46,020 nt of DNA from Acidobacteriota bacterium (GTDB lineage: Bacteria; Acidobacteriota; Thermoanaerobaculia; Thermoanaerobaculales; Sulfomarinibacteraceae). The stretch's first letter is position 1. Each line of letters begins with the position of its first letter. Shown in pieces: positions 28,335 through 30,339 of the stretch. A program made the translations under genes and the position numbers. Where the stretch lies: positions 1 to 46,020 of the forward strand of contig JAJDNM010000002.1 of assembly GCA_022340665.1 (NCBI GenBank), written 5' to 3'. The notes below the pieces were generated by a model, which was given only the letters and a program-made list of their open reading frames with translations, searched no databases and had not been told where the DNA came from.

Positions 28335-28757
28335 TCAGTCGTCGAGCTTGGGCCGCGCCCGCATCGCTTTTTTTCGTGAGCGCCGCCGTTTCGACTCCAG
28401 ACGACGCTTCTTGATCGCCCTCGGGACTTTTGTTGGCACCCGTGGATCTTCTTCGGCGAGCGCTTCGCCGAGTAATTCCTTGAATCGATCCACGGCTGCT
28501 TTGCGGTTCGCTTCGCGGGTGCGGTGACGCTGAGATGAAACCTGAAGGACGCCGTCCTTGTTGATCCTGGTCGCCAAACCCTCCTCGATTCGCATCCGCT
28601 GCTCGGGGCTCAGAGATCGTGATTCTGGAAGGCTGAAGAGAAGGCGCACCTTGGTCTCGACCTTGTTGACGTTCTGTCCCCCGGGGCCCGAGCTGCGCGC
28701 GAACTCGAATCGGAGCTCATCCTCGTCGATCGAGAGGTCGTCGTTGATGTGAATCAT
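28335..28757 (-). CDS. arfB: Peptidyl-tRNA hydrolase ArfB-like ribosome rescue factor
   Basis: This 140-residue protein has the release-factor catalytic motif S-S-G-P-G-G-Q-N-V-N-K and a lysine/arginine-rich C-terminal tail (RAIKKRRLESKRRRSRKKAM in outline) that in ArfB (YaeJ) enters the empty mRNA channel. There is no codon-recognition domain. It releases peptides from stalled ribosomes. A CATACT box ends six bases before the ATG. Confidence 0.92.
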   Translation of the reverse strand: MIHINDDLSIDEDELRFEFARSSGPGGQNVNKVETKVRLLFSLPESRSLSPEQRMRIEEGLATRINKDGVLQVSSQRHRTREANRKAAVDRFKELLGEALAEEDPRVPTKVPRAIKKRRLESKRRRSRKKAMRARPKLDD

Positions 28758-28859: not shown

Positions 28860-28889
28860 AAAAAACCCCCGCCCGGGAAGGGGTGGGGG
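28860..28889 (-). terminator. Terminator of the selenoprotein gene, formed by a repeat core
   Basis: Read on the minus strand, CCCCCACCC and GGGCGGGGG form a nine-base stem with one mismatch and a six-base loop, followed by TTTTTT. It lies about 30 bases beyond the stop of the selenoprotein gene. The same GC-rich segment is the core of word-array element 3. Confidence 0.7.
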
Positions 28890-28917
28890 AAAATTCGAAA
28901 TCCGAAATTCGAAATCT
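28864..28917. repeat. Word-array palindromic intergenic repeat, element 3 (ATTTCGA word, one good arm)
   Basis: The GC-rich core (28866-28889) is followed by an arm (28890-28917) made of AAATTCGAAATCCG-type repeats. The reverse complement of this arm matches the word of element 2. The other arm is degenerate (CAGATTCGCAGATG). The arm runs up to the stop codon of the minus-strand gene. Confidence 0.7.
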
Positions 28918-28918
28918 G

Positions 28919-30250
28919 TTACAGCAGGCTCTTGATTTCCTCTTCGATGTGCTTTTCATCACCAGCCTCGAACCCGAGGTGGTAATACATGATCTTGCCG
29001 TTGCGGTCGATCAGGAAGGACGAGGGGTGGTAGATCACGTTGAACGTGTTGTTGGCCACCTCCGTGTCTCCCTCGCCGTTCTCGAGCATCGTGTATGTGA
29101 GCCCGTTCTTCTCGATGAACGTGGTCGCACGCTCGGTTTGTCGTTTGGTCTCGACGGCGATGACCTCGAATCCCTGGTCCTTGTATTGCTCATACAACGG
29201 CTGCAGGCGTGGCAACTCCACGCGGCATCCGCCTCACGTGGGGAACCAGAAGGCGAGCAGCGTGACCTTGTCGGTGCTGATGTCTGCCAGGCTGACCGGA
29301 TTGCCTTCGTAATCGAGGAGCGTGAAGTCGTCGACCTTTTTGGCGAGCTCATTGCGGGTTGCCCACAGGAACTCGTCGAAACCCTCGTCGTTGCCGTTCA
29401 TGGCAGCGTAGGCCTCGCGAAGGTAGGACTCGGAGCTCGAGCTGTCTTGTCCAAAGAGAGTCTGAGCGCCGAGGAGTTCGACGGCCTTGTCGATGTTCCC
29501 CTCGGCCAGGGCCGCCCGGCCCCAAAACGTGTAGAGCGGGTTGTTGGGTACGCCGAGGTAGGTCACACTTCCGATCGCGTCGGCTTCTGCAAAACGGTTG
29601 AAGGCGGGCTGGGTGTTGCCCTGGTTGTAGAGTGCCCAGGCTTCATAGGCGAGGCTCTGCCCCTTGCGGAGTCGGACCATCGACGCCACCTTTTCGTCGG
29701 TGAATTCACGGTCCGGATATTCGGCGCGAAAGCTCTCCGGTGTCGCCAGTTGAAATGCTGCATGCGCGTGCTGGCGTGCCTGCTCCCACTCTTCGAGATC
29801 GGTCGCGATTTCGTATATCCACTGATGCTCGTCGTAGCCGAGCGGTCGCACGGCTTCAAGAGCACTCGCGACCTCAGCGACGTCGAGTGGGACCTCCACC
29901 GAATCGGCCAGGTCGAACAGACTCATGCTGGCTACGAAACGCTGTTCCGGGTCTTCGATCTGGTCGACGGTGGCATAAACGGCGTCGAAGGCCCCTTCAG
30001 GATCTCCCATCTCGTGCCCGCGGTAATAGACGACACGGCGAGCCAACAGGCCACTGTGCTCGGTGTTCGGAAACTCCGCCAGGTATTCCTCGGCGAGCCG
30101 TGCCTTGTCCGCTGCCGTTTCCAAACCGCTCCAAGCTTCGTTGAACTCGGACCAGGCCTCCTCGGCAGGTTTGATTCCTTCCTGTTTCGTGCACGAGCCG
30201 ACGACGCCGACGAGCACGATCAGAATCAGGACCGTTGTTTTTTGATTCAT
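28919..30250 (-). CDS. TlpA-like thioredoxin-fold lipoprotein, probable selenoprotein (in-frame TGA at the UxxC site)
   Basis: This is a 443-residue protein if the TGA at 29234-29236 is read as selenocysteine. It starts with a lipoprotein signal (lipobox V-V-G-S-C, cysteine at about residue 20) after AAGGAGGG. About 290 helical, TPR-like residues follow, then a redoxin domain: FTLLDYEGNPVSLADI, then L-L-A-F-W-F-P-T-[TGA]-G-G-C-R-V-E-L-P. After the TGA the same frame continues for 100 residues with a normal thioredoxin end, including the cis-proline region Y-H-P-S-S-F-L-I-D-R-N-G. The TGA stands exactly at the first redox cysteine. The likely role is thiol redox work in the periplasm. The alternative is a recent nonsense mutation or a sequencing error. 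Confidence 0.82.
29207..29223 (-). promoter_or_regulatory. Candidate bacterial SECIS hairpin
   Basis: On the minus strand GCGTGG-AGTTG-CCACGC forms a six-base-pair hairpin. Its loop begins 16 nt after the TGA and has a G among its first two bases. Bacterial SECIS elements lie immediately after the UGA, within the coding sequence, and this distance is at the short edge of the known range. A weaker lower stem (CGG/CCG) is possible. Confidence 0.55.
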
Positions 30251-30300
30251 GAACCCTCCTTCCGTGAGCGCGCGCCATTTTCTTAGTTGCGCGTCTGTGC

Positions 30301-30306
30301 AGTATA
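30301..30306 (-). promoter_or_regulatory. -10 box for selenoprotein gene
   Basis: TATACT on the minus strand lies 50 bases before the ATG at 30250. The transcript would have a leader with the AAGGAGGG site. No clear -35 box is seen. Confidence 0.4.
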
Positions 30307-30339
30307 CGCGCACCGGATGATGCATCGGTCATACGGCTT

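Follow-up and report, generated by a model that had tools for sequence, protein, structure and literature searches.

A probable selenoprotein family of Acidobacteriota with a TPR-like lipoprotein domain and a UxxC redoxin

Introduction

The locus described here raises the question of whether one in-frame TGA ends a gene or is read as an amino acid. It lies in the window, by which we mean the whole 46,020-nucleotide stretch of acidobacterial DNA that was analysed. A minus-strand frame of 443 residues (translation) is broken by a single TGA at 29234-29236 (-), at residue 339 within the motif LAFWFPT-U-GGC-RVELP, and this TGA stands where a ResA/TlpA-type CxxC has its first redox residue. A first-pass annotation of the DNA had placed the break at exactly this codon, and we find that the translation agrees and that its coordinates are right. 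The features of the locus are as follows.

28919-30250 (-), complete predicted selenoprotein coding sequence, 443 residues with TGA read as selenocysteine (Sec) and a TAA stop; from full-length homologues
30255-30260 (-), ribosome-binding site AGGAGG (Shine-Dalgarno), 4 nt 5' of the ATG at 30250; from sequence, with similar sites preceding the start codons of homologues
30191-30250 (-), predicted lipoprotein signal peptide with lipobox V-G-S-C20; from sequence, by eye, with Cys20 nearly invariant in 17 homologues
29345-30181 (-), N-terminal helical TPR-like domain, residues 24-302; from an AlphaFold model, PDB matches and Pfam TPR matches in 5 of 17 members
28922-29341 (-), C-terminal ResA/TlpA-like redoxin domain, residues 304-443; from Pfam PF00578 (1.5e-20) and PDB entries 3gl3 and 1st9
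29234-29236 (-), TGA predicted to be decoded as selenocysteine, residue 339, first in U-G-G-C; TGA in 30 of 30 homologues, Cys in distant ones
29225-29227 (-), resolving cysteine Cys342, invariant in 30
29216-29218 (-), Glu345, at Cys342 +3, equivalent of ResA Glu80, invariant in 30
29024-29026 (-), Pro409, the thioredoxin-fold cis-proline, invariant in the 17-member alignment
29207-29223 (-), predicted bacterial SECIS core hairpin GCGUGG-AGUUG-CCACGC; from covariation, a synonymous-recoding test, the PMC13188914 model and a covariance model
29202-29227 (-), predicted extended SECIS, a lower three-pair stem (U-A, G-C, C-G) under a small internal loop; from pairing over 17 sequences
28865-28884 (-), likely intrinsic terminator 3' of the stop codon; consensus match only

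Results and discussion

The interrupted frame is predicted to fold as one protein

Read through the TGA, the frame encodes a protein whose only cysteines are lipobox Cys20 and Cys342. The first-pass annotation expected ordinary gene calling to split this gene, and the open reading frame listing does give 29234-30325 and 28919-29221 separately. It also described a lipoprotein signal, a strong ribosome site and a long helical stretch upstream of the TGA, which we recover as VGS-C20, AGGAGG and about 280 helical residues, respectively. A 467-codon open frame runs antisense to the gene (window 28883-30286 (+)); such frames are typical of GC-rich DNA, and it is probably not a gene.

Over residues 304-436 the protein matches the Pfam families AhpC-TSA (PF00578; 73.8 bits of 26, 1.5e-20) and Redoxin (PF08534; 65 bits of 26.6, 8.7e-18). 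A complete redoxin fold is predicted across the TGA position, and the model of this domain is closest in the PDB to 3gl3, a DsbE-like protein (Z 22.6), and to ResA 1st9 (Z 21.9), with an rmsd of 1.5-1.6 A. The domain match, the unbroken fold and the invariance of Pro409 in 17 proteins bear out the earlier description of a normal redoxin end 3' of the TGA.

The N-terminal domain, modelled alone with AlphaFold, is all helical with a pLDDT of 80. Its best PDB matches are TPR domains, with Z of 13-15 over 120-160 residues, a range that helical repeats easily reach; a fold search with the same model brings up nothing in the PDB at E 0.001 or below, its top entries being TPR superhelices with low TM-scores. 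Pfam TPR repeats match weakly in 5 of the 17 members of the close set and do not match the window protein, and a PHROGs search with the N-terminal part gives no match. The helical-repeat model and these weak matches support a TPR-like, all-helical domain, and thus the combination of TPR-like and Sec-redoxin parts in one lipoprotein that the first-pass annotation had proposed.

The same TGA is conserved in thirty homologues

A close search of 100 related genomes yields 17 full-protein homologues, the window gene included and one truncated by a contig end, with 36-63% identity to the window protein. Each has exactly one internal stop, TGA every time and at the identical column. Extending the search by profile to a phylum-wide sample of 396 genomes adds 13 homologues with the TGA, several of which diverge in their N-terminal part, and brings the total to 30, again counting the window gene; the genomes of the homologue search include Holophagales bacterium UBA2201, and this assigns the group to Acidobacteriota. 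All 30 of these Acidobacteriota genes have TGA at the identical column; none has a further in-frame stop, and none has Cys there. These 30 come from many genera and families of this one phylum.

Cysteine occupies the column in distant homologues, namely L101 (CPPC), L102-L106 (CGPC) and L107 (FWFPS-CAPC), and in the redoxins of other phyla that were retrieved with the window protein. The column thus holds TGA at close and middle distance and Cys further out, a pattern that the first-pass annotation had linked to selenocysteine. In a maximum-likelihood tree of the redoxin domain, a branch with support of 96/93 separates all 30 Sec forms, together with a single Cys form (L107), from the other sequences. 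L107 (genome G296; FWFPS-CAPC-RAEFP) neighbours the Sec form L097, both on long branches; from its sequence and position it may represent a Sec-to-Cys change, or reversion. We found no relatives in viral contigs. In genome G058, contig C36:22924-23274, a TlpA-like match of the same class has one in-frame TGA and is a possible further Sec redoxin.

A covarying hairpin follows the TGA

In 29 of the 30 genes, a hairpin of six pairs begins 10 nt past the TGA and has GU in its loop; in the one exception, L100, the outermost pair is broken. The window element has its apical loop from 17 nt past the UGA (16 nt spacing), a 6-bp stem and a 5-nt loop, AGUUG, with G at loop position 2 followed by U, and it satisfies the bacterial SECIS constraints published in PMC13188914, which supplies the bacterial SECIS model and criteria. 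A SECIS covariance model finds this site, 29207-29223, as its sole match in the window (76 bits), and an Rfam search of the window gives no match.

Taken singly, the fold of the window gene is unremarkable: the MFE is -19.9 for the 42 nt past the TGA, and 11% of synonymous recodings are equally stable, so that the case for the hairpin rests on comparison between homologues. All six pairs form in 29 of 30 genes, where synonymous recoding with each gene's own codon usage leads us to expect 0.63 of 30; these genes are related and hence are not independent trials. The stronger part of the evidence is the double changes between clades, as read from the aligned sequences. The window gene has GCGUGG-AGUUG-CCACGC, a second clade GUGAGG-AGUUU-CCUCAC and L097 GUGUGG-AGUAU-CCACAC, and pairing is kept in 99.4% of cells over 29 distinct sequences. 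Two pairs covary, one as C-G (17) and U-A (12), the other as U-A (16), A-U (8) and C-G (5). Double-changed cells number 25, a count reached in 0 of 500 shuffles, and slid controls are far worse.

Constraint also extends to the unpaired bases and to codon choice. AGU is invariant in the loop (A-G-U-N-N); all 21 members with Leu in the loop encode it by TTG or TTA, compared with 12% in the rest of these genes, and the Glu codon in the hairpin region is GAG in 30 of 30. The extended lower stem is paired in 97.4% of cells over 17 sequences, and some distant homologues lack it.

The genome encodes selenocysteine machinery

The first-pass annotation had tied its reading to selA, selB, selC and selD in the same genome. 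SelA (495 bits), SelB (335 bits, cut-off 242) and a tRNA-Sec with a UCA anticodon (72.7 bits; ARAGORN concurs) are all present there, but SelD is not found above cut-off in the source assembly, which is 96.9% complete, MAG-like and in 153 contigs. Since 18 of the 19 relatives covered by this search have SelD above cut-off, including three members of its own genus, an assembly gap is the likely reason for its absence here. The best SelD match in the source genome (L082) is AIR-synthase-like, in a frame running on into HAD-phosphatase-like sequence, and is not a canonical SelD. SelD of seven genomes of the same order (G021-G027) has one in-frame TGA and is probably itself a selenoprotein.

A second TGA gene in the source genome encodes a Bcp-like peroxiredoxin (contig C94, L003 1663-1665 (-)) with the motif TPG-U-T and its own stable downstream hairpin. 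This is a known selenoprotein type, and a second selenoprotein in the genome suggests that the Sec system is in use. Co-occurrence with SelB is uninformative among close relatives, because 89 of 100 have SelB above cut-off. Across the phylum sample, SelB is found in 15 of the 17 Sec-form genomes vs 254 of 396 overall, and in 0 of 5 Cys-form genomes of genus g149, a distribution that is only suggestive; the two Sec-form genomes with no SelB above threshold (G173 and G316) are both fragmented.

Known families share the redoxin part of the protein

The nearest described proteins are those of the ResA/TlpA/CcmG (DsbE) group (PRK03147, TIGR00385, NF047696), with which the window protein shares the redoxin fold, a two-residue redox pair opening the first helix, a Glu three residues past the resolving Cys, the cis-Pro and membrane anchoring outside the cytoplasm. 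It differs from them in its predicted Sec for the first Cys and in carrying about 280 additional N-terminal residues that are predicted to form a TPR-like domain, and it scores far below the curated cut-offs of the ResA model (NF002854/PRK03147; 73.7 bits, cut-off 170) and the DsbE/CcmG model (TIGR00385; 41.5 bits, cut-off 123). The surface lipoproteins Etrx1 and Etrx2 (PMC3914529) are likewise lipid-anchored ResA-like redoxins, fed by CcdA/DsbD-type donors, and are among the structural matches of the redoxin model (Z 16.9 and 18.0, respectively), but they are Cys-based and have no TPR-like domain.

Two curated selenoprotein models are the nearest, but the scores fall far short of both cut-offs. 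NF041054 (WAxxUGC_long) describes a ResA-like selenoprotein longer than one redoxin, but its motif is U-G-C where the window protein has U-x-x-C (UGGC), and the match covers the redoxin part only (45.1 bits vs a cut-off of 300). NF053656 (redoxin_TUGYCR) is in the same register, T-U-G-Y-C-R against T-U-G-G-C-R, but scores 13.4 bits for the window protein and 22 bits for L097 vs a cut-off of 100. No model in NCBIfam (June 2026) or Pfam covers the whole window protein, and in our literature search no paper tied a protein of this kind to Acidobacteriota or Thermoanaerobaculia.

UxxC redoxins and Prx-like thiol:disulfide oxidoreductases are broad classes in a 2026 catalogue of prokaryotic selenoproteins (PMC13188914). 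The window protein resembles these entries (PF08534, PF00578; Table 1 of that paper) in having a redoxin domain with U-x-x-C, and under the catalogue's domain-plus-motif scheme it would fall in the broad UxxC redoxin/Prx-like class; for none of them did we find a description with a TPR-like lipoprotein domain. It is possible that a relative of the redoxin domain is already catalogued, for example under the "Redoxin family protein" entry (HEU0032618.1, MBA3499694.1) of PMC13188914 and PMC9312934. The first-pass annotation had called this a probable new selenoprotein, and "new" holds for family and architecture, while the chemistry of UxxC redoxin selenoproteins was already known. As a family, with an architecture of its own and no Cys form seen so far, the protein appears to be undescribed, the catalogue representatives having been compared by description only.

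One selenoprotein gene with a probable reductase role

From these comparisons we conclude, with a probability of roughly 95%, that the interrupted gene is one intact selenoprotein gene whose UGA is read as selenocysteine. The TGA in 30 of 30 genes, the covariation of the hairpin and the presence of SelA, SelB and tRNA-Sec side with the earlier judgement that selenocysteine is likelier than a nonsense mutation. We infer Sec insertion at residue 339 itself from the sequence.

Under the mechanism that we propose, ribosomes would read the UGA at 29234-29236 as selenocysteine, with the hairpin at 29207-29223 acting as a bacterial SECIS bound by SelB carrying Sec-tRNA-Sec. The product would be exported and then lipidated on Cys20; the TPR-like helical domain that follows the anchor probably holds a partner or substrate, and the C-terminal ResA/TlpA-like redoxin would bear the Sec339-Gly-Gly-Cys342 redox pair. 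The Sec339 selenolate would attack a substrate disulfide or oxidised thiol, Cys342 would resolve the resulting mixed selenide-sulfide, and re-reduction of the pair would come from a membrane protein of the DsbD type.

A ResA-like role, that of an extracytoplasmic thiol-disulfide reductase, seems to us the probable one. The Glu at the resolving Cys +3 is kept in 30 of 30 proteins, and the corresponding position, ResA Glu80, is important to the way ResA and StoA interact with substrate (PMC5909903). The same genome encodes a full DsbD with a CAPC thioredoxin domain. The ResA/DsbE-like model, the conserved Glu and cis-Pro and this DsbD together lead us to propose a lipid-anchored extracytoplasmic reductase; the reductase direction, DsbD as the donor and the role of the TPR-like domain are inferences.

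The alternative that survives best accepts the selenoprotein and assigns it a different activity, as a peroxidase or as an isomerase or oxidase. AhpC-TSA is the best Pfam match and Sec is common in peroxidases (PMC13188914); however, the fold is nearest ResA/DsbE, the UxxC pair, the ResA-type Glu at Cys +3 and the cis-Pro are all present, and the TPGU motif of Prx-like peroxidases, found for example in the genome's own Bcp-like protein, is absent here. We regard these other activities as unlikely, although they are by far the most credible of the competing accounts.

The remaining alternatives dispute the reading of the TGA itself. Two adjacent genes, a TPR-like lipoprotein ending at the TGA and a separate redoxin starting from GTG 29221, would correspond to the two frames of the listing, and gene callers would annotate them in this way. 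Such a split, however, cuts the thioredoxin fold past its first strand and parts W-F-P-T from G-G-C; the frame from GTG 29221 would be without both redox residues, the two parts join in exact frame in all 30 genes and the hairpin is left unexplained. We consider two genes very improbable. No better placed is a UGA read as Trp, Cys or Arg through a code change or a leaky stop. Plain read-through would likewise account for conservation of the frame. A code change is ruled out, however, as TGA serves as the stop codon of 17 out of 28 likely genes of the window; homologues have the redox Cys at the aligned position, and the genome has SelA, SelB and tRNA-Sec, with a SECIS-type hairpin in the gene. 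Least credible of all is a nonsense mutation or sequencing error in an ordinary Cys redoxin, a pseudogene to which the single in-frame TGA and a metagenome-type assembly in 153 contigs might point, since 30 independent genomes share the identical TGA and have no second stop in the frame, since the protein is strongly conserved to either side of it, and since the hairpin and its covariation would then be without reason. The recurrence in independent assemblies rules out both a decayed gene and a read error. We accordingly rejected pseudogene, sequencing error, split genes and code reassignment, given the conservation, the covarying hairpin and the use of TGA as a stop.

On the selenoprotein reading, a well-supported family with a new domain architecture is added to a phylum with few descriptions of its selenoproteome in the literature searched, and standard annotation would cut every one of its members into two hypothetical proteins; the alignment and SECIS model would permit its automatic annotation. 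With Cys redoxins of this fold so widespread and no Cys form found in 30 members, the family offers a good test of the benefit of selenium in an extracytoplasmic thiol-disulfide enzyme. More tentatively, these might be lipid-anchored extracytoplasmic TPR-redoxins with obligate Sec, which is never swapped for Cys in the 30 orthologues sampled, and with their own substrate or electron route, so that these Acidobacteriota would depend on selenium for a redox pathway of the envelope.

Genomic context

We find no conserved operon partner beyond close relatives. The neighbours, encoding an Era-like GTPase, a CBS/CorC protein, an RF-1-domain protein and an IF-2B-like protein, are common to only four close genomes, and since none is shared further out, the gene stands alone and its context does not indicate a substrate. 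The next gene on the same strand, at window 28335-28757 (-), encodes the RF-1-domain protein (ArfB/YaeJ-like peptidyl-tRNA hydrolase, Pfam); its adjacency to the selenoprotein gene, seen in close relatives only, is probably coincidental.
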